This document shows, one piece after another, positions 762 to 44,399 of a stretch of DNA of 44,399 bases. Within the stretch, counting starts at the first letter, position 1. The number at the start of each line of letters is the position of its first letter. Both the position numbers and the translations under genes were made by a program. Under the pieces are notes generated by a model. The model made no database searches, had not been told where the DNA came from, and saw nothing but the letters and a program-made list of their open reading frames with translations. Origin of the DNA: Cytophagales bacterium (GTDB lineage: Bacteria > Bacteroidota > Bacteroidia > Cytophagales > Cytophagaceae); contig JAAFID010000009.1 in the NCBI GenBank assembly GCA_013297765.1, forward strand, positions 1 through 44,399. Direction: 5' to 3'.

Positions 762-844
762 GAAGAATAATGATAATATTTTTTAGAATGCAAAATTAGT
801 AAATATTATCATTTATTTTTGATTAAAAATAGCACGAATCGAAA

Positions 845-2844: not shown

Positions 2845-3653
2845 TTGAGCGAAGTATTTACCGCAAATATGTTCAACTGTAAATCCATATTGGGGCCTTT
2901 AGCAATTATTTGCTCTAAGGGTTTATCAACAATTTTATTTGATGAAATAGAATATCGAAACCCATTGGTGGTAAGTATACCAAGCACTTGTTGTAGCACC
3001 TGAGGCTCATTCGAAAACGAATGATATTCTATAAATATTCTATGCACATTAATCAAGCTGTTTTTGCAATCTAGCAATACCTCATATTCTGCACCCTCTA
3101 TATCCATTTTTAAAAAATCAACTCTTGTATACTGTTCTAGTACATCCTTTAATCGAGTGCAGGGTACGGTTACTATGTTGTCCACCCCTTTCAAACTAGC
3201 ACCATCTGCCCCATCTGTACTTAAATTTATAGTACCATTATTTATCCATATGGCATGAGGTATTATAGTCGTATCGCTTAGCTTTAAATTATTAACATTT
3301 TCTTGTGCAACCTTTGCAATACTCGAATCTGCCTCATAGGCTATTATTTTGCAATCAGGGTAAATAGTTTTGTAATAAATACAGCTTGTGCCCACATTTG
3401 CACCGCAATCAATAATAAATGGGTTTCTTTTATTGGTATCAAAGTAGTAAAATTGTTTGTAAAAAATCTCATAATATTGCCATATAAATGATAATGAATC
3501 AATAATATGAATTTTATGTTTCAATATTTTTATTTTTTTGTGCACAAACCTTTCTTGGTGTCCTACTGTGGCCATCAATACTATAAAATTTCTATAGTTT
3601 TTATTGGTAAAAAAAAGATGGAAGTTTTTAAAAAGAAATTTAAAAATCAGCAT
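2841..3653 (-). CDS. FkbM family methyltransferase
   Basis: FIIDCGANVGTSCIYYKTIYPDCKIIAYEAD ... VDFLKMDIEGAEYEVL, FkbM hallmark motifs. Confidence 0.9.
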   Translation of the reverse strand: MLIFKFLFKNFHLFFTNKNYRNFIVLMATVGHQERFVHKKIKILKHKIHIIDSLSFIWQYYEIFYKQFYYFDTNKRNPFIIDCGANVGTSCIYYKTIYPDCKIIAYEADSSIAKVAQENVNNLKLSDTTIIPHAIWINNGTINLSTDGADGASLKGVDNIVTVPCTRLKDVLEQYTRVDFLKMDIEGAEYEVLLDCKNSLINVHRIFIEYHSFSNEPQVLQQVLGILTTNGFRYSISSNKIVDKPLEQIIAKGPNMDLQLNIFAVNTSLK

Positions 3654-3685
3654 AATCTGAATAATGATTAATGACTAAGATGTTT

Positions 3686-4987: not shown

Positions 4988-5742
4988 AACGTTGTTAAAT
5001 CTACAATCGAAGCGACATAATTTGCGTAATTAAAATTTTCCATACTTGGGTGGTAATTTCTCTTTTCAATGTTGTTAGGCATAATTTTGTAAATGCTATA
5101 GCCCAAAGAATTAAAAAACAAAAAGAAATCTTTTAAAAATGTTCTGGAATCTATATTTGCCCCACCATACTCAAACTGAATAGCTTTAATTTTCTTTTGT
5201 TCCAACAAATTTTTCATTCCCAAAAATGCAGCCAATTCATGACCTTCAATATCTATTTTTAAAAAATCTATATTATGAATATTATTTTCTGCACAATAAC
5301 TGTCGAGTGTTATTACTTTAATAAGTTCTTTTTCATAAGTTTGACCTTGAATATCTCTCTGATAAATAGAAGATAAGGAGTTATGATTGGTATTTGTATA
5401 TATTGATAATTCTTCATTTCTATCGGATATACCAATTTGATTGAGTATAATATTTTCTTGTTTGGATAGATTTTGGGAAAGTTGATCAAATGTCTGATTT
5501 ACTGGTTCAAAAGCATGTATAAAATATTTTTGAGTCGATTTCTCACAATATTTAATAATCATTTGGCTATAATGCCCCACGTTTGCACCAATATCGATGA
5601 ATAACATGCTTTGATTAGAAAATTTTGCTATGTACCTAGAAAGTAAATAACCTTCTCCGTTGGTAAGAAAATTAATATTATTATTATTTTCTATTTTATT
5701 AAATATTCGAAGAATGAGCGACCTTAATTTTGTGCTTTTCAT
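4984..5742 (-). CDS. FkbM family methyltransferase
   Basis: MLFIDIGANVGHYSQMIIKY ... IHAFEPVNQTFDQL ... IDFLKIDIEGHELAAFLGM. Confidence 0.9.
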   Translation of the reverse strand: MKSTKLRSLILRIFNKIENNNNINFLTNGEGYLLSRYIAKFSNQSMLFIDIGANVGHYSQMIIKYCEKSTQKYFIHAFEPVNQTFDQLSQNLSKQENIILNQIGISDRNEELSIYTNTNHNSLSSIYQRDIQGQTYEKELIKVITLDSYCAENNIHNIDFLKIDIEGHELAAFLGMKNLLEQKKIKAIQFEYGGANIDSRTFLKDFFLFFNSLGYSIYKIMPNNIEKRNYHPSMENFNYANYVASIVDLTTL

Positions 5743-6518
5743 ATTTTCTTGAATTGGTAGAGGCCTATTCCATACCCATTTTCTTTGATATACATGTTTA
5801 CCATGTCATTTTTATAAATATATCTTTCTTCTATTAATTCACAATCATAGAATTGCTCTAATATAAATTCTCTAGTAAATGCCCTATGAGCATTGAAATA
5901 GATTTTGTTAGCATCATTTATTGGAACAGAAAATAGTATAAAACCATTTTTTGCAGTAACTCTTATCAATTCTTTTATAGATTTTTCGCTACCAAAGGCA
6001 TCTATTGAATCGCCATACCTTCCCAAACCTATATGTTCTATAACACAAAGCGACGATATAGATTTAATGCTATTGTTTTCAAATGGTAAATTTAAAATGC
6101 TACCTTTAATGAACTTGAGATTTGGCAATTTCAATGCAATGGGTCTTATATCTATCATTGTGGTAGGCACAAACTGAGATATTATGCCAATAGTTTTGGC
6201 AGCACTACCTATATCAAAGTGTTCTAGAGGCGGGTTTTGAAAAATTTTTGACGCCGCCCAACTATCTTGATAAAAATAAACAGGATCTAAAGGAGTATTG
6301 GTTGTTTTATCCTGCAAACAAGGTAAAAAATCCTTTATATAAAATTGAAAATTGGAGTTTTTTAAATCATTTTTAAGTTTTATATAATCTGATATAAAAT
6401 TAAATAAATCTCTTAAAAAAGTGATAGGTTTAAATCTAAAGTATTGTTTAAGAGCTTGAATAAGATTATAAGCAATGACAAAGATTCCAATTTGTTTAAA
6501 TTTATTTTTAATACTCAT
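5739..6518 (-). CDS. DUF268-like / SAM-methyltransferase-fold protein of polysaccharide loci
   Basis: HFDIGSAAKTIGIISQFVPTTMIDIRPIALKLPNLKFIKGSILNLPFENNSIKSISSLCVIEHIGLGRYGD. The listed ORF starts at a TTG; the internal ATG (MSIKNKFKQIG) at 6518 is preferred because it sits just after the upstream stop. Confidence 0.75.
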   Translation of the reverse strand: MSIKNKFKQIGIFVIAYNLIQALKQYFRFKPITFLRDLFNFISDYIKLKNDLKNSNFQFYIKDFLPCLQDKTTNTPLDPVYFYQDSWAASKIFQNPPLEHFDIGSAAKTIGIISQFVPTTMIDIRPIALKLPNLKFIKGSILNLPFENNSIKSISSLCVIEHIGLGRYGDSIDAFGSEKSIKELIRVTAKNGFILFSVPINDANKIYFNAHRAFTREFILEQFYDCELIEERYIYKNDMVNMYIKENGYGIGLYQFKKI

Positions 6519-6520
6519 CT

Positions 6521-7246
6521 TTACATAGATTGGAAAAAAATCGCTGGTCTTTCTTTGTGAAAAACACAACGAAAAATTTTATTTAATTTATTTTTAATTA
6601 AAAAACTCTTTGTAGGATTTTTTAACTCAATGTTTGATAGGTATTTCGGTGCTATAAATTCAAAGAAATCAACTTCATTTTCAAATATTTTTAATTTAAT
6701 TTCGCTTGTAAATTCTTTTCCTGTAGCAAATAATCTTGGATCTACTTTTTCAATTCCTATTTTAGCAATCCCCCTCAAATGCATAGCAAAATCGGTATAA
6801 AGTTTCATTTTCTCAATGTTACTTTTATTTTTTGGTAAGCAAACTATCGTGTCGGCAACAATATCCATAAAGTTTAAGTGTACATTAAAATCATATATAT
6901 AATCGTAAAGCAAAGTTGGAAATTCAACGTATTTGGTTTTGGCAATTCGATTTAGTTCTTCAATTAAAACAGGTAAATCATTGACTGGCACATGCTCTAA
7001 AACATGCGAGCAGATAACATAATCAAAAGATTGATTATTAAAGGGAATTTTATTTTCTACAATTTGGAATAGAGGTTTTCCTTTGAGTTCCATTTTTTTA
7101 CCACCAAATTGTTTCAAATCAATAGAATCATCTGAAGGGTCATACTTATCTAGTAAACAGTCGCTACGCCAAAAAGGATAAGCACCAGGACCCAGCTCTA
7201 TTACTAAATCTGTTTTTTTAATATTCAATAAATTAGGGAAAAACAC
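6521..7246 (-). CDS. SAM-dependent methyltransferase (Methyltransf_11-like)
   Basis: LVIELGPGAYPFWRSD ... FDYVICSHVLEHVPVNDLPVLIEELNRIAK. GTG start overlaps the upstream flippase gene. Confidence 0.75.
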   Translation of the reverse strand: MFFPNLLNIKKTDLVIELGPGAYPFWRSDCLLDKYDPSDDSIDLKQFGGKKMELKGKPLFQIVENKIPFNNQSFDYVICSHVLEHVPVNDLPVLIEELNRIAKTKYVEFPTLLYDYIYDFNVHLNFMDIVADTIVCLPKNKSNIEKMKLYTDFAMHLRGIAKIGIEKVDPRLFATGKEFTSEIKLKIFENEVDFFEFIAPKYLSNIELKNPTKSFLIKNKLNKIFRCVFHKERPAIFFQSM

Positions 7247-8747
7247 GTAGCTTCTTTTTTAGTAAAATAATTGTTTGTTGGTATAAAGAATTCAAATCTG
7301 AAGATATATTCATATGATAGCAAATTACCAAAACAGAAGAAGTAATAACAATACATTTTAAAAATATAATTGCTAAAGCAAGGAATAAGCTAGATGGAGA
7401 GAATATAAAAAATTTAAAAATCAACACTATACTTATACTCAATAATATAATTTTTACTGTACCAATAGAAAATGGTTGAATGCCAAACTTGAACCAAATA
7501 AATATGAGCTTCAACATATTAAATATAAAAAGAGACAAAGCAAAAGATATCGCTGCACCATTGATGCCTAGATTTGGGATTAGCAATATATTTAAAACGA
7601 TTGTCATTGCCGATAACAGTAACATTGCCATTAAATTAAACTTAAAATATTTAGAATATAAAATTATTTCACTATTGACCCCTGTCATCATATCAAATAT
7701 TTTTCCTAACCCTATGAATAATATTACATATTTGCCTTGCATAAATATTTCATGATTAGGAATGATATATAGCAATTCGTCTACACAGCACCATACGCAT
7801 AGAAATAAGACCACCCCAGCAAATAATTGATTGATAGAAGATTTTTTATAAATATCTGCTATTGTATCTATGTCATTATTTTGCCAAGCCTGCACAAGTA
7901 TTGGAGTGCTTATTTGGGCAACTGCTCTTTTAGGAATTTCAATTACAGCCCCTATAAAAAAACCAACACTATAAACCCCTGTATTAGCTAAACCTTTGGA
8001 AGCTCCTATAAATATGGTATCAATTTTTGAAATCACCAGACTTCCAGCAGTGCCTGGAATAATAAAACCTACATAGCTAAATATTTGCTTTACTAAATTG
8101 GAAGAAAAAACACTCCAACAAGGTATTAAATATAATATTTTTAAGTAAAAGCTATATATAATCAATAAGATGACAGATATAAAATAGGTTGCCACAAATA
8201 AGTATAAGAATAGAGTAAGAGTAACAAATTTGAAGGCAAACAACAATATCAATAGAGAAAATAAAAAACGTTGAATTATTTCTCTTACTATCGTTGGCAC
8301 TACTATTCGGCAGTGTACTCTGCAATAAGCCTCAAAAATACTGGAATACATTTGAAAAAATGCCAATGGGACAATAAGGTAAAAATAATACACCAACATT
8401 GGTGATTTGTCTTGAAAAATGGAAAGTAAAAATTCATTAAATACTGTAAAAAATAGTATAAAGAGTACAAAACCAAATAGTGCATAGATGATTAAAAAAA
8501 ATAAAAAACCATTGTTTTTATTATCATCGGTTTTAAAATAGGGGAAAAATCTATCTGCTACATTTGCCGCTCCTAGCTGTATAAAAGATCCAAGCAAAAA
8601 TGGAATATCTTGCAACAGTCTCAATAAACCTATTTGTTCAATACTAAAAAACTTTGGAAGCAAAAATAATGTGTTCGCAATGCCAAAAACAATTCCAATG
8701 TACGAGAATATAGTACTCTTAATACTTTGTCTAATTATAATTCCCAT
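7233..8747 (-). CDS. Oligosaccharide flippase (Wzx-like, MOP superfamily)
   Basis: 504 aa, about 12-14 hydrophobic segments; start IIIRQSIKSTIFSYIGIVFGIANTLFLLPKFFSIEQIGLLRLLQD is typical of Wzx/RfbX proteins. Confidence 0.85.
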   Translation of the reverse strand: MGIIIRQSIKSTIFSYIGIVFGIANTLFLLPKFFSIEQIGLLRLLQDIPFLLGSFIQLGAANVADRFFPYFKTDDNKNNGFLFFLIIYALFGFVLFILFFTVFNEFLLSIFQDKSPMLVYYFYLIVPLAFFQMYSSIFEAYCRVHCRIVVPTIVREIIQRFLFSLLILLFAFKFVTLTLFLYLFVATYFISVILLIIYSFYLKILYLIPCWSVFSSNLVKQIFSYVGFIIPGTAGSLVISKIDTIFIGASKGLANTGVYSVGFFIGAVIEIPKRAVAQISTPILVQAWQNNDIDTIADIYKKSSINQLFAGVVLFLCVWCCVDELLYIIPNHEIFMQGKYVILFIGLGKIFDMMTGVNSEIILYSKYFKFNLMAMLLLSAMTIVLNILLIPNLGINGAAISFALSLFIFNMLKLIFIWFKFGIQPFSIGTVKIILLSISIVLIFKFFIFSPSSLFLALAIIFLKCIVITSSVLVICYHMNISSDLNSLYQQTIILLKKKLRVFP

Positions 8748-8750
8748 CTT

Positions 8751-9656
8751 TTACTTAAATATTTTCATAAACAAATAGATAAGATAACTGGGAAGCATTT
8801 TAATTTTAATTTTTAAATAGTAATTTTTTAATAATTTTCTAGCTATCTGATTTTCGGAAATTTTATTAGTAAAATTTGGTATTTGCTTTTGTAAAGTTGA
8901 ATGCTTGTATACACTGGTAGCAAAAGAGTGAACTCCACTATTGTCGTTCCCCGTATTATTTACAAAAGAGGTATTGGGAAAAAGTGTAAGCCCATTTTTA
9001 AAAAACATACTTGCATACCATCTAATGGCCCAAGAATCATTTTGCCCATTGGCACACTTACGAAGCATACGGTGGTAATTGAAGCTGTGACCGTAATCAA
9101 AGGTTTTTACAGCAGTATCGTCAAATTTTGATAGTAACACTTGAGCCGATGACTCAAAAGATTTCCATGATGCCGCCCATGTTGCCCAGCCCCAAGAGGA
9201 GCAATGCCTTAAAAAAAATGTATCTGGCAATAAATTGGCTTGTATGGGAAACCAATACCCAGATATTTGCATCACTTGTTCCTCATTTTCATATTTTTCT
9301 AGAGCTGCATTCATGTATTCCAAAAAAGTAGCGGATAGAACCAAATCATCCTCTAATACTATTATTTTACCGTATTTTTCTATTACACTTGTTACCCCAC
9401 TAATTACAGATTGGGCAAGACCTAAGTTGTATTCTTGAACAATAAACGTTAAAGACATAAACCCATAATTTTTATTAAATAATGCCCTAACTTCTTGTAC
9501 AGATTGAATATCAACATCTGATGCATTTACTTTACAACCATCGGCATATACAATTACGTCTGTTTCCTTTGCTAAAGTATTTTGCTCTAAAGAAGCTAAA
9601 AGCCTAGCGGTATGAACAGGGCGGTTGTAAACAAATAGTACTACTGGAGCAAGCAT
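8751..9656 (-). CDS. GT-A fold glycosyltransferase (GT2-like)
   Basis: APVVLFVYNRPVHTARLLASLEQN ... IIVLEDDLVLSATFLEYMNAALEKY ... SSWGWATWAASW. Confidence 0.85.
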   Translation of the reverse strand: MLAPVVLFVYNRPVHTARLLASLEQNTLAKETDVIVYADGCKVNASDVDIQSVQEVRALFNKNYGFMSLTFIVQEYNLGLAQSVISGVTSVIEKYGKIIVLEDDLVLSATFLEYMNAALEKYENEEQVMQISGYWFPIQANLLPDTFFLRHCSSWGWATWAASWKSFESSAQVLLSKFDDTAVKTFDYGHSFNYHRMLRKCANGQNDSWAIRWYASMFFKNGLTLFPNTSFVNNTGNDNSGVHSFATSVYKHSTLQKQIPNFTNKISENQIARKLLKNYYLKIKIKMLPSYLIYLFMKIFK

Positions 9657-12181
9657 TATTCAATATTGGATTGTTTATTCTTTTTCACTTCCACAACTCC
9701 AATTAACCCCACCCCTATAAACAAAATAATGGAGCATAGCATAGAAATATTTTCTCCTAAAATATAAGACCTTGGCTCAAATTTGAACTCTATTTTATGA
9801 TTTCCAGCCGGCACATTTAAGCCTCTAAGAATATAATTCACCCTAATATGATTTGTAGGTACTCCATCAATATACGCATTCCATCCTAAGCCCGAATTAT
9901 AATAAATTTCTGAAAACACTGCCAATTGTGGGCTGGTAGTTTTAGATTGATAAACCAAATCATCAGGTGCATAACTTGTTAATTGAATATTTGCCAAACT
10001 ATCGGTGCCTCGTACATTAATTGATTTTAAAGCATCTTTATATTGAACATTTACTACAGCGGTAGTTTTAGGATTTAAACCTTTTAAACCAGCTATCTCT
10101 TCATCTGGAGAATTTACCCAATTAATATTTTGTACAAACCAAGCATTGCCTAGTGCATCAGGATTACGCTGTGCGACTGGAGCAGTATTCTTTTGTTGCT
10201 GAACTATAAAATATTTTGTGTTCAACATATTCAAAACTGCCATATTATTATTACTAATATGTTGTTCTATCACATCTTGAACTCTCTTCATTTTTGCTCC
10301 AGAATATCCTCCAACAGATTTGTGAAAATAAGACGTGGTAGCGTCGTTGAATGTACTAACAGATGCATTAAATACCCTATAATTAGCGTCTGTATCTTTA
10401 AGAATTTCTAAATCTGCAGGAGTAGGCTCAAAAGTTTCTAAGGCTTTACGTTCATTCTTGAAATCTTCGTCATTCAAATATCGTTTACAAACCGCCCACA
10501 TATCAAATAATACTAATACTGCTGTAATGGAAAGTAGCAATTGATAATTGATTTTTTTTCTTACAAAAAGCCAAATTGTTATTGCTGCCAATAATACCAA
10601 TACCAATGACCGCAAAGCATCCATTTTAAATAGACTTATTCTATCTTCGATAAAAGATTGAAAAATATCTTCCGACAACTTTTCGTTCTGCGTTACTTGC
10701 ATCAAAACAGATTTAAAATAATCGTCCGATGTTTGAGCTATTTTACCTGTAGCGTCCACTGTTTCAGATATTTTTTGAAAATCCATTACTGAACTACCTA
10801 TCAGTAGAAATAGAATAAATATTGCAGAGAAAACTCCTGTAGAGATTTTGAGTTTTTTTTCTATTTCCTCATTAGTCAATTTGCCCGATAATATTTCCTT
10901 TGTACCCCAAATGCCTACCCATACAATGAATATGGAAACCAAAGCATGAATCATAGTTACGGCTCTAAATTTATTGTAAAGGGGAAAATGGTCAAACAAA
11001 AAGTAATTGAACCATTCCAAATTTTTGCCCCAAGCCATCATAGAAAACAAAACTATAACACCTAATATCCACCATTTTATTTTATCCTGAATGACTAGCA
11101 TACCTAGCAAAAACAAAAAGCAAAAAATGGCTCCCATATAGGCAGGCCCAGAAGTACTTGACTGCTCACCCCAATACAATTGCCCACCGTAGCCACCTAT
11201 ATTTTGAACAAAATCTTTGGCAGCACTTTTTGGCACTCCATTTTCAACCATTGTTGTATATACATTGGACTTTTCATTCAATTTTCCCTCTGAAGAACCG
11301 CCGTAAAAATTAGGTATGATGTAGGTAAATGTTTCCACTATGCCATAACTCCAACTATAGGCATAGTCTCTATCTAGTCCACCAATTTTTGCTTGAGCCG
11401 AAGATGATTTTAATTCTGATGGGCCTCTGGTCGAATATTTAGTATATTCATAAGTAGTCCAAAATCTTGAAGCCATACTTCCTATACACAAAATGCCTAT
11501 AGACAAGGCTATCATTGACGCATAAATAAACTGTAAAATTTTCTTTTCCTTAATTGATATTAATAGGTAATACAAAACCAAAACACCAATACCTATAAGC
11601 AGATAATAAGTAATTTGAATGTGATTGGCATAAAGTTCCATCATCGCAAAAAAAGATGTAACCAGTGCTCCTAATAAAAATCTACCTCTATAAAGAAGAA
11701 CAATACCAGCAACTAACGGCGGACAATAGGCAACTGCTACAACTTTAGACACGTGCCCAGCCTGGATGATGATAATATTATACGAAGCAAATGCAAACCC
11801 TACAGCACCAATAGCACTAAGCCAAGGATCGAAACCTAAAACAATGAGCATAATATAAGCACCTACCAACATCCAAAAGATAAGATTTACTGGTAAAGGC
11901 AAAATATAGGTAAGATAACTTGAAAGCCTAGAGGTATAACTTTTAGGAAATTCTCCTTTAATGGTATAAGTGGGCATTCCACCAAACATGCTGTTCGTCC
12001 ATAGGGGCATTCTACCTGTTTCTTTTTTAAATTGAGTAGCTTCTTGTGCGGCACCAGAGGCCTGCACCATATCATGCTGAAGAAGAATCTTGTGATCTAA
12101 TACAGGTTTGCAATAAAGAAAAGACAACACCAAAAAAATTGCCACCACTATTGAGTGTGGTATTAATGATTTAAAATTCAT
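9656..12181 (-). CDS. YfhO family membrane protein
   Basis: 841 aa polytopic; HKILLQHDMVQASGAAQEATQFKKETGRMPLWTNSMFGGMPTY and C-terminal YYNSGLGWNAYIDGVPTNHIRVNYILRGLNVPAGNHKIEFKFEPRSY are YfhO hallmarks. Confidence 0.9.
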   Translation of the reverse strand: MNFKSLIPHSIVVAIFLVLSFLYCKPVLDHKILLQHDMVQASGAAQEATQFKKETGRMPLWTNSMFGGMPTYTIKGEFPKSYTSRLSSYLTYILPLPVNLIFWMLVGAYIMLIVLGFDPWLSAIGAVGFAFASYNIIIIQAGHVSKVVAVAYCPPLVAGIVLLYRGRFLLGALVTSFFAMMELYANHIQITYYLLIGIGVLVLYYLLISIKEKKILQFIYASMIALSIGILCIGSMASRFWTTYEYTKYSTRGPSELKSSSAQAKIGGLDRDYAYSWSYGIVETFTYIIPNFYGGSSEGKLNEKSNVYTTMVENGVPKSAAKDFVQNIGGYGGQLYWGEQSSTSGPAYMGAIFCFLFLLGMLVIQDKIKWWILGVIVLFSMMAWGKNLEWFNYFLFDHFPLYNKFRAVTMIHALVSIFIVWVGIWGTKEILSGKLTNEEIEKKLKISTGVFSAIFILFLLIGSSVMDFQKISETVDATGKIAQTSDDYFKSVLMQVTQNEKLSEDIFQSFIEDRISLFKMDALRSLVLVLLAAITIWLFVRKKINYQLLLSITAVLVLFDMWAVCKRYLNDEDFKNERKALETFEPTPADLEILKDTDANYRVFNASVSTFNDATTSYFHKSVGGYSGAKMKRVQDVIEQHISNNNMAVLNMLNTKYFIVQQQKNTAPVAQRNPDALGNAWFVQNINWVNSPDEEIAGLKGLNPKTTAVVNVQYKDALKSINVRGTDSLANIQLTSYAPDDLVYQSKTTSPQLAVFSEIYYNSGLGWNAYIDGVPTNHIRVNYILRGLNVPAGNHKIEFKFEPRSYILGENISMLCSIILFIGVGLIGVVEVKKNKQSNIE

Positions 12182-12203
12182 TTGATCAAATAATTAATTT
12201 TTT

Positions 12204-13019
12204 CTAATAATTCTTCTTACCTCGCAAGTTAAAGATTATCGCTCTAATTGCTATAAAAATATGTGAGATAATGGTGCGAAACCAACCATAGTGGTTCAAA
12301 TATATAATAAATCTTTCTTTCCAAGCTAATTTACTATTTTGCAAAGAATATCCCCCTACCAAATATTGGCTTATAATTAGATTTGTATTCACTATTATTT
12401 TACTTTTTTTAAGTATGGCTATCACCCAATCTATATCGGCACTGCAACGGTATTTAGTATCAAACTTTGATGCTAAAGCGGTACGCACTATTATTGATTG
12501 GTGCGAAACCAACATTCCTTGCTGAAAACTTTTCCAAGTCAATGATGCTGGTAATTTTCTAGTCGATAATTCGCTTCTGGTGCCTAGTATATTACCCCAA
12601 TCATCTATCAGATTGGTTTCTCCAAAATAAACATCGGCATCTGTATTTTTACTTTTTATATTGGCCAATACTTGGGCATTATTTAACCTATCTCCAGAGT
12701 TGATAAATACAATGTATTTGCCTTTTACAATATCCAATGCTTTGTTCATTGCATGGTACAGCCCTTTGTCTGGTTCACTTTGCCAGTAATCTATCTTATC
12801 ATTATTTGCCCGAATAATGTTCAATGTATTGTCTGTAGAGTTCCCATCTATTACCAAATATTCGTAGTCTTTTTCCGTCTGACAGGCGATACTATCTATT
12901 GTTTTTTGAAGTAAATTTTCACTGTTGTACACCACCGTAACGATACTGATAAAAGGCTGTGCTATACCAGTATTTCTAGTGCCTCCTACGGTTTTGGTGG
13001 GTGTAAATTTGGCTTCCAT
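12204..13019 (-). CDS. Glycosyltransferase family 2 (WcaA-like)
   Basis: PFISIVTVVYNSENLLQKTIDSIACQTEKDYEYLVIDGNSTDNTLNII ... PDKGLYHAMNKALDIVKGKYIVFINSGDRL. Confidence 0.92.
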   Translation of the reverse strand: MEAKFTPTKTVGGTRNTGIAQPFISIVTVVYNSENLLQKTIDSIACQTEKDYEYLVIDGNSTDNTLNIIRANNDKIDYWQSEPDKGLYHAMNKALDIVKGKYIVFINSGDRLNNAQVLANIKSKNTDADVYFGETNLIDDWGNILGTRSELSTRKLPASLTWKSFQQGMLVSHQSIIVRTALASKFDTKYRCSADIDWVIAILKKSKIIVNTNLIISQYLVGGYSLQNSKLAWKERFIIYLNHYGWFRTIISHIFIAIRAIIFNLRGKKNY

Positions 13020-13024
13020 TATCC

Positions 13025-14053
13025 TTATTTCAATACCGAATTTGCAGCCGTATAAATTGCTTCTATTATCTCTACCACTTTCATTCCTTCTGCAGGTGTA
13101 GCGGTAATGGGCGTACCTACTTGTAGATGGTCGATTGCATTCTGAATCACAAATTCGTGATTGGCGGCACTACCTTTGTAAAAGCCATAATCATTAGCGG
13201 GCAATGATGGTGCTAGCGCTGGCATTTCATAATTTTGAATATGACAATATTGAATCTCATTCATGTATTGTCCACCTACTTTTACACTTCCATGCTCGCC
13301 AATGATACTAATGCTGCTTTCAAAGTTTTTATCCCAGGCGGTAGTAGTAAAATTAAAACTACAAGTTCCACCATTTACAAAATCAAATAGTGCAACACCA
13401 CTGTCTTCAAAAGCTATGCTGCTGCCATGGTTAAAATTATGGGTACGGGCAACGATATTTTTCACATCCCCAAAAAGCCAATATAGTGTATCAATGTAGT
13501 GGCTGAATTGGGTAAATAACACACCGCCATCAAATTCGGCACTGCCACGCCAAGGGCTTGATTGATAATACCTACTGTCTCTATTCCAAAAACAATTTAC
13601 AGCTACTAGATTAATATTGCCTAATAATTTATTTTCTATAATTTCTTTTAGCCACACCGCAGTAGGGCTATAGCGGTTTTGCATTACGCAAAAAATATTT
13701 TTTTTCATTTCCAATGCCACATTCAACATGGCTACAGCGTCTATTTTAGAAAGTGCCATGGGTTTTTCGCATACCACATGATGCCCCGCTTGCAGCGATT
13801 GTGTGGTTTGAATTTTATGATAGCCGTTAGGCGTGCAAATATTCACCACATCAATATTTAAGCCTGCTGCAAATAATGCTTCTATGGAAGTAAAAAATGG
13901 TATTTGATATTCTTTACCTATTTTTTCAGCTATAATTTTGTCTGTATCTACCACGGCCACCAGCCTCGCACTATGTGTATTGGCAATTACGCTACAATGC
14001 CTTTTGCCTATATGCCCTGCCCCTACTACTGCAAAATGAATGGTATTGTTCAT
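13025..14053 (-). CDS. Gfo/Idh/MocA family oxidoreductase, WbpB/WlbA-like
   Basis: HFAVVGAGHIGKRHCSVIANT ... VNICTPNGYHKIQTTQSLQAGHHVVCEKPMALS; NAD-binding Rossmann and EKP motifs. Confidence 0.9.
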   Translation of the reverse strand: MNNTIHFAVVGAGHIGKRHCSVIANTHSARLVAVVDTDKIIAEKIGKEYQIPFFTSIEALFAAGLNIDVVNICTPNGYHKIQTTQSLQAGHHVVCEKPMALSKIDAVAMLNVALEMKKNIFCVMQNRYSPTAVWLKEIIENKLLGNINLVAVNCFWNRDSRYYQSSPWRGSAEFDGGVLFTQFSHYIDTLYWLFGDVKNIVARTHNFNHGSSIAFEDSGVALFDFVNGGTCSFNFTTTAWDKNFESSISIIGEHGSVKVGGQYMNEIQYCHIQNYEMPALAPSLPANDYGFYKGSAANHEFVIQNAIDHLQVGTPITATPAEGMKVVEIIEAIYTAANSVLK

Positions 14054-14074
14054 ATTCTATTTGATGCCATTGAC

Positions 14075-15220
14075 CTATACATCGCTCTTTTGTTTTGTTA
14101 ATTTTTCCAAACCTAGCAATACATTTTTACAAATAAAAGCAATCTGCTCTTGGTCAAGTTCCGTGTGCATAGGTAGCGAAAGTACCGATTGACATAGGTC
14201 TTGCGATGTTTGCCCCATGGATTGATTATTCCATTTTTGAAATGCTGGCTGGCTGCTCAACAGCGATGGATAGTACACCATTGAGGGAATACCTTGTGTT
14301 TGCAAATACTTTTTCAATGCGTCTCTGTGCGGTGTTTGTATGGTAAACTGATTGAAGGTAGATGGAGTATTAATTCTTTCTTTTGGCAATTTTAATAATT
14401 CACTATTTGAAAGATATTGCAAATACTGGGCGGCAGCCATTTTTCTATTTGCCAAATACTGGTCAAAGTAGGTTAATTTGACATTCAATATGGCTGCTTG
14501 TAAACTATCCAGCCTAGAATTAATGCCAACAGATTGATAACTGTATTTGACCACCGAACCATGATTAGCCAATGTTTTGATGCGAGTTGCAAAGTGGGAA
14601 TCTTGTGTGCATACTGCTCCACCATCGCCCATAGCACCTAGATTTTTGGTAGGAAAAAATGAGGTAGTTCCTATATGCCCCATCGTACCTGCATAGTGCT
14701 TACTCCCATCTTGCCATTGGCATGTCGCACCTAAACTTTGAGCCGTATCTTCTATTACATAAAGATTGTATTTTTTTGCTAAAGCCAATATGGGTTGCAT
14801 ATCGGCACACTGCCCAAATAAATGCACGACTATAATTGCCCTAGTATTGGTAGTAATATTTTTTTCAATTTCCGCTGCTTGAATATGATAGGTATCGTTG
14901 CAGACCTTTGTAAATACTGGCTTGTAGCCTAGCAGTGCAACCACTTCGGCTGGTGCTACAAAAGTAAAATCAGGAACTATTATTTCGGCATCTGGTGGCA
15001 AGTCTAGTGCCATCAAGGCTAATTGTAGTGCATCGGTACCATTTGCACAACCAATCACATGATTTACGTTCAGTAATTTTTGTAGTCTTTCGCTGAATTG
15101 CTCTACTGCCGACCCACCAATAAAAACAGACGATGCAATGGTTGTAGATATTGCTAAATCTAATTCAGATTTTATTTTTAGATGCTGACCTAATAAGTCA
15201 ACCATTTGAATTTGTTGCAC
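14075..15220 (-). CDS. DegT/DnrJ/EryC1/StrS family PLP-dependent aminotransferase, WbpE-like
   Basis: HVIGCANGTDALQLALMALDLPPDAEIIVPDFTFVAPAEVVALLGYKPVF ... VIEDTAQSLGATC ... TTSFFPTKNLGAMGDGGAV (PLP lysine). Confidence 0.93.
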   Translation of the reverse strand: MQQIQMVDLLGQHLKIKSELDLAISTTIASSVFIGGSAVEQFSERLQKLLNVNHVIGCANGTDALQLALMALDLPPDAEIIVPDFTFVAPAEVVALLGYKPVFTKVCNDTYHIQAAEIEKNITTNTRAIIVVHLFGQCADMQPILALAKKYNLYVIEDTAQSLGATCQWQDGSKHYAGTMGHIGTTSFFPTKNLGAMGDGGAVCTQDSHFATRIKTLANHGSVVKYSYQSVGINSRLDSLQAAILNVKLTYFDQYLANRKMAAAQYLQYLSNSELLKLPKERINTPSTFNQFTIQTPHRDALKKYLQTQGIPSMVYYPSLLSSQPAFQKWNNQSMGQTSQDLCQSVLSLPMHTELDQEQIAFICKNVLLGLEKLTKQKSDV

Positions 15221-35478: not shown

Positions 35479-35515
35479 AGGTTTACAATTAAAATTATTG
35501 TAAACCTTTTTTTTT
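35479..35515 (+). terminator. Rho-independent terminator downstream of tRNA-Thr
   Basis: AGGTTTACAAT-taaaatt-ATTGTAAACCT followed by a T-run: perfect 11-bp stem with U tract. Confidence 0.88.
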
Positions 35516-35727: not shown

Positions 35728-36663
35728 ATGGTCAAATACTTTATTATACTTTTCATGTGTATAATTCCTATAATCGGATGGGGACAAACTGCAGAACAAT
35801 ACATTGAACTGGCCAACAAAAAACAAAAAGAAGGCAAAAGTAAAGAAGCGGTTAATTTATATTCCAAAGCTATAGGAATCTGTAAAGATAGCAGCCAGTA
35901 TTTTATTAAAAGATCACATGCCTATTTGACCTTAGGGTTATCTGTTGAAGCTTTTGATGATATCAATACAGCTATAAAATTAAAGCCAAAAAATGCAGAA
36001 GCATATATGATGAGGGGCTACATCTATTATATCTTAAAAAAAGCCGACAAATCAATAATAGATTATACCACTACTATTGAGTATGCGCCCACTGATTCCA
36101 TGAAAGCTTTTGCTTATACCAACAGGGCAAGTGCTAAAATATTGAATAGAGATTTCGTGGGTTGCCAAACAGATTGTAAGCAATCCCTATTGTTAGACAG
36201 TCTCAATATTGGTGCTTTAAATAATTTGGCAATGTCAATGGATGAATTAGGGAGAGGAAAGGAAGCTATTGAATATTTGGAAAAAATAATAAAAATAGAT
36301 TCGAATGCCACGTTTGCCCTTATGAACATTGGCTACAAACTTTCAGAAGAAAGCAAATTTAAAGAAGCTTTAGCGTATTACAATAAAGCAATAAATGCAG
36401 GTTTTAAAGAAGCATATGTGTTTAACAACCGAGGTTATTCAAGACTTAAACTAGGCGATATTGATGGTGCTAAAGAAGATATTAATAAGTCATTAAAATT
36501 AGACCCATCAAATTCATATGCTTATAGAAATTTAGGATATGTGAATCAAGCACAAGGGAAAATAGTAAAAGCCTGTGAAAACTGGAATGACGCAGTAAAA
36601 TATGGTTTTACAAAATATTACGGTAAAGAAGTTGAAGAATTATTAAAAAAACATTGCTTATAA
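35728..36663 (+). CDS. Exported tetratricopeptide repeat protein
   Basis: Signal peptide VKYFIILFMCIIPIIGWGQ; TPR units such as AEAYMMRGYIYYILKKADKSIIDYTTTIEYAP and SYAYRNLGYVNQAQGKIVKACENWNDAVKYG. Confidence 0.92.
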   Translation: MVKYFIILFMCIIPIIGWGQTAEQYIELANKKQKEGKSKEAVNLYSKAIGICKDSSQYFIKRSHAYLTLGLSVEAFDDINTAIKLKPKNAEAYMMRGYIYYILKKADKSIIDYTTTIEYAPTDSMKAFAYTNRASAKILNRDFVGCQTDCKQSLLLDSLNIGALNNLAMSMDELGRGKEAIEYLEKIIKIDSNATFALMNIGYKLSEESKFKEALAYYNKAINAGFKEAYVFNNRGYSRLKLGDIDGAKEDINKSLKLDPSNSYAYRNLGYVNQAQGKIVKACENWNDAVKYGFTKYYGKEVEELLKKHCL

Positions 36664-36682
36664 ACCTAGTAATTAATACTTT

Positions 36683-39600
36683 ATGATTTTAAGATTTAAA
36701 ATTTTAATTGGAATATTTTTATATTCTATCCATTTATTTGCTCAAGTATCAAAACCTATTGATTCTTATGAAATATTTAATACAATTGAAGAGCTAAGTA
36801 AGCAATCTAAATATGAGGAAATAATACAGGAATTAGATAAAATAGACCGCAATGATTCTAATTATGTAGCCAGTTTGCTTGAAAAATCGGTGTACTATAT
36901 TCAATTGAAAAAATATGATGATGCTATCAAACAATGTTTATTAGGTTTAAAATTTAAATCAAATTACAGACATAAATTAATTATAAATCAAGCGGTGTCT
37001 TTAAAATTGCTTAATAAACATGAAGAGGCATTAAAAGTTATTGAGAATGGCTTAAAAACATATCCAAATAACAACTTGTTATGGTACAATAAAGGCAATA
37101 TTTACACCAATATGGGCAAACATAAGGAAGCATTGGAGATGTATAAAAAATCACTATTGCTGAATCCATTTTACCCAAGTTGCCATTTAAGTTTAGGATT
37201 GATTGCACTTGAAGAAGGTAAAATTACTCAAGCTATGCTGGCACTCAATATGTTTTTAATATTAGAACCTGCTACTAATCGATCTTTGGGGGTATTAAAA
37301 AAACTTGACGAAGCGGTATCATCAAAATATGAATTAAATGTAAAAAATATTGAATTATCAGATCAAGGTGATGATTTCTCAGATTTGGATATGATTATAA
37401 CCAACTATGCTGCATTGGCCAAAAATTATAAAACCCCTATTAAACTAGATTTAGCAATTGCAAAACAAAATTATGCAATGCTCTCAAAACTAGAATACAA
37501 CAAAAATGAACAAGGCTTTTGGATGCAAACCTATGTACCATTTTTTAAAGCACTTTACACTGAAAACAAATATGCAGAATTTACTTATTACACTTTACAA
37601 TCTAGCGGTACCGAATACCATCAAACACTAATCAATAAAAATAAAGAGTTGTTATTAAAATTTAAAGATTGGGCAGCAATCAATATAAATAATATACAGA
37701 AGACCAGAACAATCACTTTAAATAACAAAGTCGTTCAAGCAAATTGCAAATACAATTCAAGCAATAAATTAATAGAAAGTGTAGGTGCAATAAACACTGC
37801 AGGAAAAGAGGTGGGGTATTATGAATACTACCAAAATAACGGAGCCATGCGTGCATTTGGAAATTTTAACAATAATGGTGAAAAAGATGGGCTATGGAAA
37901 TATTTTTACTACAATGGAGAGCTGCACCAAGATATAAACTACACAGCAGGCAAAGAAAATGGTAAGTACAGGGTATATTTTGAAGATGGTGTATTGAAAA
38001 AAGAAGGTGAATGTATAAATGGCAATTATGAAGGGCTTGAAAAAGAATACAATGCAGCAGGAATATTAATAGGGAAATCTAATTATAAGAACAACAAAAA
38101 TGAAGGTGCTATAATTATAAATCATGATTTTAATGCCAATGCTAAAAAATTCGAAGGAAAATTTAGCGATGGAGAATTGAATGACACCCTGTATGAATAT
38201 TACGACAACGGAAAAATTAAAAATTATAAAATAATGGTAAAGGGCAAGAAAAATGGCCCAGAGAAACAATTCTATAGAAATGGAAACATTTATACAGAAT
38301 TTGTAAATATAAATGACTTAAAAAGTGGAAATTATAAAATATATCATGAAAATGGCAAACTAAAAGAAGAAGGAAATTATGTTGCAGACATGTTGGTAGG
38401 TCCATTTAAAAGTTTTCATAACAATGGAACTATAGAAGATGAAGGTGTTTATAATGAAAAAGGGAAAGCAGAAGGAGTAAGAAAATACTATGATAGTGAC
38501 GGGAAAATATACAACGAAGTAGAATACCTTAAAGATGAAATTATCAGTTACAAATATTTTGACAAAGACGGCAAGATATTAAAGGATGAAAAGCGAAAAA
38601 AAGGCTCATTTAATTATACAGGATATTTTCCCGAGGGAAATAAAAAACTTGAAGGGGTATATACTGATAAAGGAAAAGTAGGCAGTTGGAAATATTACGA
38701 TGAATATGGTAATGTGACTACTGAAGAAAATTTTAATTCATTAGGTGAACTTGATGGAGTTGTGAAAAATTATTATCCTGGAAATATATTAAAAGACATT
38801 ACTCAATATAAAAATGGTATAGAAGACGGATATTATGTAAAATACCATGAGAATGGTAAAAAGAAATCCGAAGGATATATGATCAATGGTTCAGCTCAAG
38901 GATATTGGCAATATTATAATGGTGATGAAATTTTAGAAACTAAAAAATACTATTCTGGAGGACAACAGCATGGATATCAGCAATTTTTTGCATGTACAGG
39001 GGTATTGACAAATGAAGAATATTTTGAAAATGGCATGAAAACGAAAATCATTTATTACGATACCCTTAATGCTGTAACTCAAGAAATCATACTGCCTAAT
39101 GGTACTGGGGAAATTAAAATGAGTTATAACAACAATGCACCAAGAATGAAAGGACAATATATTTTAGGTTTGCAACATGGTGATTTTAAATGGTACTATT
39201 ATAATGGCAAACTAAGAATGGGCGGTATGTTTCTTAATGATAAAGAGACTGGTAATTGGAAATGGTATAATGAAGCAGGACTATTAATCACCGAAGGAAA
39301 TTATGAAGATGGCAAGAAAACCGGCAAGTGGTTATATTATCACGACAATGGTAAATTAAAACAATCAACATATTATCAAAACAACAAGGTGCAAGGAGAG
39401 CAAGTGTGGTATCATGAAAATGGAAAAGTTGACGTAAGCAAAACTTATATTGATAATGATGAAGAAGGAAAATCATTTGCATTTGATGATAGTGGTGAAC
39501 TTCAAATTATGCGCTATTACAAAAAAGGTATTCTAGTTGGCTACTCTTATTATGATAAAAATGGACAGTTGGTACCTAATATTAACGTATCAAATGGTAA

Positions 39601-39973
39601 TTACAAAGTACTTTCATATTATAAAAGTGGTAAAAAAGGAAGAGAACATGAAGTGCTCAATGGACAATTCACCAAAACTTATTCAGAATATAACTCTAGC
39701 GGTGTTCTTTGTGAATCAATAAATTATAAATTTGGGGAGTATGATGGAAAATGTTTAAAATACTATACAAACAATGTTTTAAAATCAGATGAGTATTATA
39801 CCATAGGAGAATTAAATGGAAAATGTAAATACTATTATGCTAATGGACAAATAGAAAAAGAGCTGAATTACAAATTTGGATATTTGCATGGTAAGGCGAT
39901 TTATTATGCTAATAATGGAGCAATTAAACTTACACAAACATATTATTCAGGTGTCGTTTTAAATGAAAAATAA
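36683..39973 (+). CDS. Exported TPR plus YwqK/MORN-like repeat protein (1096 aa)
   Basis: Signal peptide FKILIGIFLYSIHLFAQ; N-terminal TPRs (NNLLWYNKGNIYTNMGKHKEALEMYKKSLLLNP); then many YYxNGxLxxxxxYxxGxxxGxxxxY units. Confidence 0.88.
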   Translation: MILRFKILIGIFLYSIHLFAQVSKPIDSYEIFNTIEELSKQSKYEEIIQELDKIDRNDSNYVASLLEKSVYYIQLKKYDDAIKQCLLGLKFKSNYRHKLIINQAVSLKLLNKHEEALKVIENGLKTYPNNNLLWYNKGNIYTNMGKHKEALEMYKKSLLLNPFYPSCHLSLGLIALEEGKITQAMLALNMFLILEPATNRSLGVLKKLDEAVSSKYELNVKNIELSDQGDDFSDLDMIITNYAALAKNYKTPIKLDLAIAKQNYAMLSKLEYNKNEQGFWMQTYVPFFKALYTENKYAEFTYYTLQSSGTEYHQTLINKNKELLLKFKDWAAININNIQKTRTITLNNKVVQANCKYNSSNKLIESVGAINTAGKEVGYYEYYQNNGAMRAFGNFNNNGEKDGLWKYFYYNGELHQDINYTAGKENGKYRVYFEDGVLKKEGECINGNYEGLEKEYNAAGILIGKSNYKNNKNEGAIIINHDFNANAKKFEGKFSDGELNDTLYEYYDNGKIKNYKIMVKGKKNGPEKQFYRNGNIYTEFVNINDLKSGNYKIYHENGKLKEEGNYVADMLVGPFKSFHNNGTIEDEGVYNEKGKAEGVRKYYDSDGKIYNEVEYLKDEIISYKYFDKDGKILKDEKRKKGSFNYTGYFPEGNKKLEGVYTDKGKVGSWKYYDEYGNVTTEENFNSLGELDGVVKNYYPGNILKDITQYKNGIEDGYYVKYHENGKKKSEGYMINGSAQGYWQYYNGDEILETKKYYSGGQQHGYQQFFACTGVLTNEEYFENGMKTKIIYYDTLNAVTQEIILPNGTGEIKMSYNNNAPRMKGQYILGLQHGDFKWYYYNGKLRMGGMFLNDKETGNWKWYNEAGLLITEGNYEDGKKTGKWLYYHDNGKLKQSTYYQNNKVQGEQVWYHENGKVDVSKTYIDNDEEGKSFAFDDSGELQIMRYYKKGILVGYSYYDKNGQLVPNINVSNGNYKVLSYYKSGKKGREHEVLNGQFTKTYSEYNSSGVLCESINYKFGEYDGKCLKYYTNNVLKSDEYYTIGELNGKCKYYYANGQIEKELNYKFGYLHGKAIYYANNGAIKLTQTYYSGVVLNEK
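37778..39970 (+). repeat. Array of about 23-aa YwqK/MORN-like coding repeats
   Basis: For example NGELHQDINYTAGKENGKYRVYFEDGVLKKEGECINGNYEG, NGKLRMGGMFLNDKETGNWKWYNEAGLLITEGNYEDGKKTGKWLYYHDNGKLKQ. About 28-31 units by eye; degenerate at DNA level. Confidence 0.85.
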
Positions 39974-41903
39974 ATTATACACAATCAATCAATATCTAAT
40001 TTTATTAATTGTTTCAATCGCTGTAAGCAACTGTTATGCACAGACAAATTTAGAGTATAAACGATTAAAGGCACAATATCCAGGCGAACAAGTTGTTACT
40101 ATAATGAACAATGAAAAATTGAACATTAGTATAACAAATGGAAAAATTGATGTACAATTAGATTCATATTTAGAAAAAATATATTTAGAAAATACAGCAG
40201 GACTTTATTCTGAAGGCTCTGTGGATTATACAGATTTTGGTAAAATAATAAAAATAGAGGCAGGTAGTTTGTTGCCTAATAATGACAAATACAAAACAAT
40301 ACCTGTAAAGGATTTTACAAAAACTGAAAAAATAAGCAACCATGTTTTTTATGATGGATTAAAGAATATTTCTTTTTTTTATCCATCATTACAAAAAGGA
40401 GCTAAATCATATTTGAAAATAAATAAGCAAATCTCTGAACCCAGGCTTATCAATGCCAATTTTTTTCAAGAAAATAATCCAGCATTAACTTCAGAATATA
40501 GTGTTTCTTTTCATAAAGATATAGAAATTGATTTTCGATGTTTTAACATCAACGACACTACAATTTCATTTACAAAAACTATAAATAAAAACATAAATAC
40601 CTACAGTTGGAAAATGAACAATGTAGCAAAATATCAATACGAGGCAGGAGCACCTGATTTTAATTATTTTACACCTCATATTGCAGTTTGGATCAAATCT
40701 TATACTATCAATGGAAAGAAAATAAATGTACTTAACAGTTTAGATGATTTGTATAATTGGTATTATAGCCATACTAATAAAATAGATGAACAATATAGTT
40801 CTGAGTTAAAAAACATTGTAGATTCTTTACTAAAAAATGAAACTGTAGAAATCGAGAAAGTAAAAAAAATATACTATTGGGTACAAGAAAACATTAAGTA
40901 TATAGCATTTGAAGATGGTATGGCTGGTTTTGTACCAAGAAGTGCTTCTAAAGTATGTGAAAAAAGATATGGTGATTGTAAAGATATGGCCAATATCATC
41001 AAACAAATGCTGGCATATGCGAATATTAGAGCGCATTGGACATGGATAGGAAGCAATTCATTGCCATATACCTATAAACAACTACCAACTCCATCGGTAG
41101 CTAATCATATGATTGCTACCTATATCAACAATGGTAACTATTACTTCCTTGATGCTACCGGTAAAAAAACACCGCTAGAAATTCCCACTGATTTTATACA
41201 AGGGAAAGAAGCGATGATTAGTATTGACAGCAATCGCTATGAAATAAAAAAAGTAACTACAGTACCATTTGAAAACACACAATTGGTAGATTCTGTGAAC
41301 ATATATATTGATCAAAATAATATTGTTGGCAATGGAAAGTCATCATTAACAGGCTATGAACACATCTCATTGTATTTGCAACTTTATGATACCAAGGAAG
41401 ACACCTCACAAATATTGAGAGATTATTATAATAAAGGAAACAATAAGTTCTTAATTTCAAAATTTTCTATTGCTCAATTAGAAGATCGGAATCTTCCTGC
41501 AATTGTAAAATATGACTTTAATATAGCTGATTATGTAAAAATAATTGATAATGAAATATATGTAAATTTAAATTTGGACAAAAACTATCAGCATGAAGAT
41601 TTAAATGCTGACAGAAAATTGTCGCTTCAAAAAGATAATAAAGAATTGCTTAAGTCTATAGTGACCCTGAAAATACCTAAGGGTTACGCACTTCAAGAAT
41701 TGCCTCAAAACAGCACTTATAACAATGAATATTTTGGATTTAAGGTAGAATACACTAGTTCAAAAGATGAAGTTATCTTAAAAAAAAATATTTATATTAA
41801 TTTTTTACTTTTAGAAAAAGAAAATTTTGAAGCCTGGAACAACATGATTAAACAATTAAACAAAGTATATCTTGAAATAGTATCGTTAAAACAAATAAAA
41901 TAA
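39963..41903 (+). CDS. DUF3857 plus transglutaminase-like domain exported protein
   Basis: Signal peptide ending CYAQ; WVQENIKYIAFEDGMAGFVPRSASKVCEKRYGDCKDMANIIKQML ... VANHMIATYINNGNYYFLDATGK, giving Cys-His-Asp transglutaminase-like residues. Confidence 0.9.
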   Translation: MKNKLYTINQYLILLIVSIAVSNCYAQTNLEYKRLKAQYPGEQVVTIMNNEKLNISITNGKIDVQLDSYLEKIYLENTAGLYSEGSVDYTDFGKIIKIEAGSLLPNNDKYKTIPVKDFTKTEKISNHVFYDGLKNISFFYPSLQKGAKSYLKINKQISEPRLINANFFQENNPALTSEYSVSFHKDIEIDFRCFNINDTTISFTKTINKNINTYSWKMNNVAKYQYEAGAPDFNYFTPHIAVWIKSYTINGKKINVLNSLDDLYNWYYSHTNKIDEQYSSELKNIVDSLLKNETVEIEKVKKIYYWVQENIKYIAFEDGMAGFVPRSASKVCEKRYGDCKDMANIIKQMLAYANIRAHWTWIGSNSLPYTYKQLPTPSVANHMIATYINNGNYYFLDATGKKTPLEIPTDFIQGKEAMISIDSNRYEIKKVTTVPFENTQLVDSVNIYIDQNNIVGNGKSSLTGYEHISLYLQLYDTKEDTSQILRDYYNKGNNKFLISKFSIAQLEDRNLPAIVKYDFNIADYVKIIDNEIYVNLNLDKNYQHEDLNADRKLSLQKDNKELLKSIVTLKIPKGYALQELPQNSTYNNEYFGFKVEYTSSKDEVILKKNIYINFLLLEKENFEAWNNMIKQLNKVYLEIVSLKQIK

Positions 41904-43873
41904 TGATGAAAAATATCATAATCTCATGCGCCTTTTTGCTTTTCAATTGCCACATAATTGCTCAAGATATAGTTTACGCTGGGTATGATTGGAGCAATAA
42001 TCCAAAACCTAACAAATTGTCAACTAACGAGAAACAATTGGCTGAATTGATATTAAAAGAAAAACAAGCTATTGAATATCTCTTTGATGAAACTACTAAA
42101 CAATTTTTGCAGTATGAATTATTACACAGAATTTTAAGGGTAAATTCTAATGTTGCTATTGAGCAAAATAATCGTATTTATATTCCTTCTTCCAAAGAAG
42201 CCGAATTTTTAAAACATAAAATAAGGGTAATTAGCCCTAATGGAAAAATAAAAGTATTGTCAAATGCTGATATTAAAGAAGCGGAACATGAAGAAACCAA
42301 AGTTAAATACAGTTATTATGCATTAGAAGGTATAGAGTTAGGTAGCGAAATAGAGTATTTTTATTTGAAAAAATCTTATGCAGAATACACAGGAATAAGA
42401 GAAACAATCCAATCAGATGTGCTAAAAAAAAATGTTGAGTTTGAAATTATTTCTTCACCTCATTTAATATTTAAAGCAAAGTCTTATAATGGTTTACCTG
42501 AATTTAAGTCAGATACTAGTATACCCAACAAACTTAATTTGTCTCTAAAATTAGATTCTGTAGTGGCATTAAAAGAAGAAAGCAATTCTGCATATACTTC
42601 TAATCTTCAACAATTTATATACAAGCTAGAGAAAAACACAGCCACTGGAAAAAAAGACATAGTTTCATACGGAGCAGTTTCAGAAACTATTTATAAATCT
42701 ATAATGGTGTGGGACAAAAATATTTCCAAAAAAGTTAAAAAAACTTTAGATAAAATTGATATCAAATATTCCATCGATGAAGAGGACAAAATTAAAACCA
42801 TTGAAAATTACTTAAAAGTGAATTTCAATATATTAGATAATAATAATGCTCAACTGGAAGATATATCACAAATACTGGATACAAAAGTTGCAAATAAGCC
42901 AGGAATGACAAAACTATTTGCAGCAATATTTAACGAATTAAATATTGATTATCAAATAGTTTTAACTTGCGAACGAAACAAATTAAAATTTGATACAAAG
43001 TTTGAGTCTTACAATTTTTTGAACAATTATCTAATTTACCTGCCTAAACTTAACACCTTTTTATCTCCTTCTGACCAGTTCACATGTTTAGGATTTGTAC
43101 CTTATTATTTAACAAACAATTATGGTCTTTTTATTAAAAAAGTAAAACTAAATGATTTTGAAACAGGAATAGGCAAAATAAAATTTATAGACCCAGTTGC
43201 TTATGACAAATCGTATGATAATTTGAAGGTGGAAATTGTCACAAATTCAGAAATCATAAAGCCATTGATAAATATCGAACGACAAATGGGCGGCTACTAT
43301 GCAGAATACTACCAGCCTTATTATAGTTTCTATACTGATGAAGACAAAAAGAAAGCTACTGAGGGAATAATGAAAGATTTTATTGAAGGCATTGACATTA
43401 AAAAAGTAACGGTAGAAAATGAAGGTAATGATTACTTTGGCAAAAAACCCTTTATAGTAAAATCTTCATTTGTGGGTGATAATCTTGTAGAAAAAGCAGG
43501 TGAAAAATATTTATTTAAAATTGGTGAATTGATAGGTAGGCAAATGGAAATGTATAAAGAAGAACAAAGAAAACTACCCATAGAGTCTTCATTTAATAGG
43601 TCTTATCATCGACTATTAAGTTTTGAAGTACCTAAAGGTTATAAAATTACAAACTTAAATTCCTTAAATATGAATGTTTTTTTAGAGAAAAATGGTGAGA
43701 AAATTTTTAATTTTGAATCAAAACATACTTTAAATGGGAATAAACTAGATATTGAGATTTCGGAAGTTTATAAGGTAATTGAGGTTTCTTTAGAAGATTA
43801 TGAAAACTATAGAAAAGTGATTAATGCAGCAGCCGATTTTAATAAAGTCACTTTATTTTTAGAAAAATTATAG
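41903..43873 (+). CDS. DUF3857-like exported protein with degenerate transglutaminase-like region
   Basis: Signal peptide IIISCAFLLFNCHIIAQ; same organisation as the preceding protein but with KVANKPGMTKLFAAIFNELNIDYQIVL and FLNNYLIYLPKLNTFLSPSDQF where the triad should lie. Confidence 0.75.
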   Translation: MMKNIIISCAFLLFNCHIIAQDIVYAGYDWSNNPKPNKLSTNEKQLAELILKEKQAIEYLFDETTKQFLQYELLHRILRVNSNVAIEQNNRIYIPSSKEAEFLKHKIRVISPNGKIKVLSNADIKEAEHEETKVKYSYYALEGIELGSEIEYFYLKKSYAEYTGIRETIQSDVLKKNVEFEIISSPHLIFKAKSYNGLPEFKSDTSIPNKLNLSLKLDSVVALKEESNSAYTSNLQQFIYKLEKNTATGKKDIVSYGAVSETIYKSIMVWDKNISKKVKKTLDKIDIKYSIDEEDKIKTIENYLKVNFNILDNNNAQLEDISQILDTKVANKPGMTKLFAAIFNELNIDYQIVLTCERNKLKFDTKFESYNFLNNYLIYLPKLNTFLSPSDQFTCLGFVPYYLTNNYGLFIKKVKLNDFETGIGKIKFIDPVAYDKSYDNLKVEIVTNSEIIKPLINIERQMGGYYAEYYQPYYSFYTDEDKKKATEGIMKDFIEGIDIKKVTVENEGNDYFGKKPFIVKSSFVGDNLVEKAGEKYLFKIGELIGRQMEMYKEEQRKLPIESSFNRSYHRLLSFEVPKGYKITNLNSLNMNVFLEKNGEKIFNFESKHTLNGNKLDIEISEVYKVIEVSLEDYENYRKVINAAADFNKVTLFLEKL

Positions 43874-43967: not shown

Positions 43968-44399
43968 TTAAATATTTACAATTAAATTGCAAAGGTTTTT
44001 ACCTATACAATTTTCGATTTTAAAAGTATCCATCAATTGATTAAACTTCTCAATTCTATCCTCCATGGTTTCAAGGTATCTATTGTGTCTGATTTTTTTT
44101 CTCATATACCACCATATTCTTTCGATAGGATTTAAGTCTGGAGAATAAGAAGGTAAATAAACCAATTCTATTCGATGTTTATATCTCTCTAAAATCGGTT
44201 TCAGTCTTTTTGCATGATGATATCTCACGTTATCAACCACCATTACTACTTTCTGATTTGGATAAAGTAACACAACTGCAATTAAAAATTGAAAAAAAGT
44301 TAGTGTATTACCTTTTTCTGCAACTTTAGTTGTTACAATCCCTGTTGCTGGATTCACGCACCCAAACAGGGTTTTTCGTTCTCTTCTTCGTTGCTTTTG
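43968..44399 (-). mobile_element. IS630-family transposase, C-terminal DDE portion (truncated by the window edge)
   Basis: Frame open to the edge: QKQRRRERKTLFGCVNPATGIVTTKVAEKGNTLTFFQFL...KVVMVVDNVRYHHAKRLKPILERYKHRIELVYLPSYSPDLNPIERIWWYMRKKI (IS630 DDE_3 motifs). Confidence 0.88.

Follow-up and report, generated by a model that had tools for sequence, protein, structure and literature searches.

A probable enzyme-pseudoenzyme module in Bacteroidota, formed by a DUF3857-transglutaminase and its catalytically dead paralogue beside a TPR-MORN_2 protein

We propose that three neighbouring genes of the locus analysed here (genes 2, 3 and 4) encode a periplasmic module or complex in which an enzyme and a pseudoenzyme are held on a repeat scaffold. 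We think this reading probable. It draws on gene order, likely export signals, the state of the catalytic triads, co-inheritance, matching copy numbers and selection, all of them read from sequence.

Results

The genes lie near the end of a 44,399-nucleotide stretch of DNA (the window), with the following features:

35479..35507, plus strand: terminator-like hairpin with a T-run, after tRNA-Thr and upstream of gene 1 (a consensus match only)
35728..36663, plus strand: gene 1, likely exported TPR protein of 311 aa (Pfam TPR)
36683..39973, plus strand: gene 2, likely exported protein of 1096 aa with N-terminal TPR and MORN_2 repeats, the putative scaffold
39963..41903, plus strand: gene 3, DUF3857-transglutaminase of 646 aa, triad Cys339/His382/Asp397 intact
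41903..43873, plus strand: gene 4, predicted dead paralogue of gene 3, 656 aa, all three triad positions replaced

By their ORF coordinates, genes 1 and 2 are 19 nt apart, genes 2 and 3 overlap by 11 nt, and genes 3 and 4 overlap by 1 nt. This is exactly the arrangement of four same-strand genes (spacings of 19, -11 and -1 nt) given in the initial annotation. A consensus search found no terminator-like sites between genes 1 and 4. A minus-strand fragment with a match to the DDE_3 transposase family (window positions 43968-44399) lies 94 nt past gene 4 and runs off the contig end; its placement in the IS630 type is our own assignment. At the other end of the window, positions 1-15220 contain glycosyltransferase, FkbM methyltransferase, DegT aminotransferase and GFO/IDH/MocA oxidoreductase genes, a set that suggests a surface-polysaccharide cluster.

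The products of genes 1-4 are likely exported. Judged by crude hydropathy, all four N-termini carry a hydrophobic core, with Sec cleavage plausible just ahead of a Gln, and a hydrophobic N-terminal stretch is present in nearly all homologues by the same measure. The four proteins had been predicted to be periplasmic or outer-membrane partners; hydropathy is consistent with the export part of that prediction, but an outer-membrane anchor was not found. A lipobox-like motif occurs in only 3 of 70 gene 3 homologues. Genes 3 and 4 have no NCBIfam match of any kind, and the listed matches of genes 1 and 2 (25 of 26 for gene 1) include no model of a Type IX sorting domain.

No DUF3857 genes besides genes 3 and 4 were found in the 3.56-Mb genome. 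By score, both belong to DUF3857 (PF12969, curated cut-off 24.6 bits): gene 3 matches it at 52.9 bits (6e-14) and gene 4 at 26.6 bits (7e-6). Only gene 3 belongs to the Transglutaminase-like superfamily (PF01841, cut-off 23 bits) on both score and Cys-His-Asp triad. It matches Transglut_core at 32.2 bits (1.4e-7) and keeps the Cys, His and Asp of the superfamily, whereas gene 4 scores a sub-threshold 18.6 bits and is without all three residues. These differences extend to the homologues. Among aligned gene 3 homologues, the Cys is present in 72 of 72, the His in 74 of 74 and the Asp in 73 of 73. At the aligned triad positions, none of 80 gene 4 homologues has the Cys, 1 has the His and 4 have the Asp. 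The earlier suggestion of a pseudo-enzyme beside an active enzyme is thus borne out at the level of residues, with the triad intact in gene 3 and the Cys lost in 80 of 80 gene 4 homologues.

In the predicted structures, gene 4 has the same fold as gene 3. The AlphaFold models have pLDDT values of 88.5 (gene 3) and 84.8 (gene 4), and the best PDB match for both is 3KD4, with TMt of 0.78 and 0.74, respectively. 3KD4 is BDI_1141, a DUF3857/transglutaminase protein from Parabacteroides distasonis whose sole annotation is that of a putative protease, and over the aligned part its domain order is that of genes 3 and 4. Its aligned catalytic motif, YGTPLE as opposed to YGDCKD in gene 3, makes it resemble the dead partner. 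A profile search found no other DUF3857 relative in the PDB; since this sole relative is Cys-less by its aligned motif, it is possible that no structure of the active form has been solved.

The order of genes 2, 3 and 4 is conserved. A scan of named genomes with a gene 4 profile gave 435 relatives, and we kept the best 80; these are the closest relatives, and fractions of them are not a census. Genes 2-3-4 occur in this order at 61 of these 80 loci, with all three near full length at 57, and the ordered loci span Cytophagia, Flavobacteriia and Chitinophagia. At 14 further loci of the 80, gene 3 is upstream of gene 4 and no gene 2 was called, 6 of the 14 being cut by a contig end. Spacing is tight, with medians of -17 and +4 nt, and lengths are nearly constant, with medians of 1096, 647 and 656 aa. 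At one locus (L112) the cassette is preceded by an additional gene 4-type ORF. A search of the openly available literature, which takes in few subscription papers, gave no description of such a cassette; DUF3857 itself turned up in one paper.

Gene 1 is an optional member of the cassette, as judged from these loci. Its full-length homologues directly adjoin the cassette at 7 of the best 80 of 435 loci, with 28-35% identity, E values of 1e-37 to 1e-52 and most of their length aligned, and they lie upstream, downstream or on both sides. The remaining gene 1 profile matches in the 80 loci are far weaker and mostly come from the TPR region of gene 2. In same-family relatives gene 1 was not seen at the 2-3-4 loci, and two genomes of that family have unlinked gene 1 homologues. 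Of the four-gene operon put forward in the initial annotation, the 2-3-4 part is conserved, but gene 1 is optional and found on either side of the cassette. We rejected a strictly four-gene unit, with gene 1 at only 7 of 80 loci, in favour of three genes plus one optional gene.

The three core genes have a nested distribution. Among 242 genomes of the surveyed order, gene 2 is carried by 24, gene 4 by 62 and gene 3 by 80, and the genomes with gene 2 are a subset of those with gene 4, themselves a subset of those with gene 3, with zero exceptions and without correction for shared ancestry. In a draw of 396 genomes from the phylum, which overlaps the order sample in including some genomes of that order, gene 3 is present in 13 of 13 gene 4 genomes and gene 4 in 8 of 8 gene 2 genomes. 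Rare co-occurrence of the homologues, named in the initial annotation as a finding that would refute its four-gene proposal, is clearly contradicted by this nesting, by the 61 ordered loci and by the matching of copy numbers described below.

Gene 2 itself has Pfam matches to TPR and MORN_2 (2.3e-33). In each of the 24 gene 2-bearing genomes of the order it immediately precedes gene 3. It is absent from most gene 4 genomes, and many genomes that carry genes 3 and 4 lack it; the scaffold is therefore dispensable. Gene 2 shares its MORN_2 repeats with YwqK/MORN_2 proteins and LIC20035-type adhesins, but differs from both in its additional TPR region and in its tie to the transglutaminase pair. 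Assignment to the LIC20035 family (NF033566) was rejected: the match is partial and, at 76.3 bits, far below the 250-bit cut-off. That partial match would be the starting point for a different explanation of the locus, as a surface adhesion or matrix module in which an adhesin-like MORN_2 protein is cross-linked or matured by the transglutaminase, and MORN2 is reportedly mentioned in papers on Fusobacterium adhesion and vesicles. We consider such a module improbable, given the low score, the many genomes with genes 3 and 4 that have no gene 2, and the fact that a surface anchor was not seen.

Copy numbers of genes 3 and 4 match even where the genes are apart. The two genes are neighbours in 43 of 62 genomes and unlinked in about 19, some of these through contig breaks. 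With the unlinked genomes included, copies are equal in 60 of 62 (1:1 in 54 and 2:2 in 6). For this count, the score that divides cassette-type gene 3 paralogues from the others was set after the list had been seen, and a few fragment hits were added by hand. The other two genomes, G108 and G154, have fragmented assemblies. In the one-contig genome G053, genes 3 and 4 are each present twice, and the copies lie at four separate places (L168-L171).

Gene 4 is under purifying selection. Its omega ranges from 0.014 to 0.080 over six close pairs. Five of these pairs give a value for both genes, and in four of the five gene 4 has the lower omega. In the Sporocytophaga-type pairs L032/L033, L032/L035, L033/L035 and L032/L034, which share genomes and are thus not independent, gene 4 has an omega of 0.014-0.031 and gene 3 one of 0.035-0.056. 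The pair L036/L037 shows no greater constraint on gene 4 (0.080) than on gene 3 (0.073). For L038/L039 the gene 4 value is 0.065, while gene 3 is saturated and gives no value. With omega this low, gene 4 is constrained and therefore not decaying.

In a 66-row tree, live and dead members fall into separate clades that recur as pairs. The tree requires 3 changes among the labels live, dead and 'dead?', compared to a shuffled mean of 23.8. A single origin of the dead state is possible. That the dead members form old, separate clades also fits another reading, in which gene 4 descends from an enzyme but now acts as a binding protein (its ligand a peptide or glycan, for example) that serves the same pathway as gene 3 without contacting it. 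The genomes in which genes 3 and 4 are unlinked are in keeping with that idea, as is the persistence of the DUF3857-transglutaminase fold without a catalytic Cys in proteins such as 3KD4. We nevertheless regard it as unlikely: a fixed-ratio complex fits the equal copy numbers, which hold even in unlinked genomes, better than a loose link through a pathway.

Tree distances correlate (r of 0.86-0.94, against at most 0.25 in shuffles, with shared ancestry uncorrected). Vertical descent would itself give such agreement, and the genes might be ordinary neighbours, an operon for exported proteins kept by descent with no functional coupling. This is very improbable in our judgement. Both in same-family relatives and at the best 80 loci the flanking genes change while 2-3-4 stay together, and the nested distribution and the matching of copies hold when the genes are unlinked.

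Live-dead pairing recurs across the phylum. In the 11 clusters of the phylum draw with all members aligned (L165, L178-L185, L187 and L188), each has one Cys-bearing member and one or two Cys-less members. The partners in L186 and L191 are unaligned and are labelled 'dead?'; by eye, both have the motif KGDA and no Cys. Counting against the pairing, L189 has a dead-only and L190 an active-only DUF3857 gene in the 7 kb read around each. Two dead paralogues accompany each live one in L165, L180 and L187. Live members of the clade comprising L165, L178-L185 and L187 have Cys-His-Glu, with Glu replacing Asp at the third aligned position.

Three further loci (L192, L194 and L195) encode single-chain fusions of TPR, DUF3857 and transglutaminase, about 1250 aa long and with the motif G-D-C-K, in which TPR and live enzyme are joined. 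Unlike in the cassette, neither MORN repeats nor a dead copy was seen within these chains. They link TPR scaffolds to the live enzyme.

Discussion

We postulate that the product of gene 3 is a thiol enzyme with a Cys-His-Asp transglutaminase fold and that gene 4 supplies its obligate, catalytically dead partner. The gene 4 product probably binds that of gene 3 and could thereby activate it, stabilise it or aim it at its substrate. Gene 2 probably serves as a scaffold for the pair or displays the envelope substrate of the pair, and gene 1 may be an extra TPR adaptor used in some lineages. In bacterial proteins with a Transglut_core domain, hydrolysis is at least as likely as cross-linking. We infer a physical complex, regulation by gene 4, a periplasmic location, and a reaction, either acyl transfer or hydrolysis, that has a peptide or protein as its substrate.

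More tentatively, we speculate that DUF3857 transglutaminases of Bacteroidota in general might be obligate enzyme-pseudoenzyme heteromers, in which the live subunit needs its dead paralogue in a fixed ratio. Such an arrangement would be old and shared by several subfamilies, and in the present locus it would be carried on an exported TPR-MORN scaffold. We hold this broader form to be possible, though somewhat short of probable. If true, it would provide a function hypothesis for a domain that is still "unknown" in its Pfam entry, and DUF3857 proteins could be tested as live-dead pairs.
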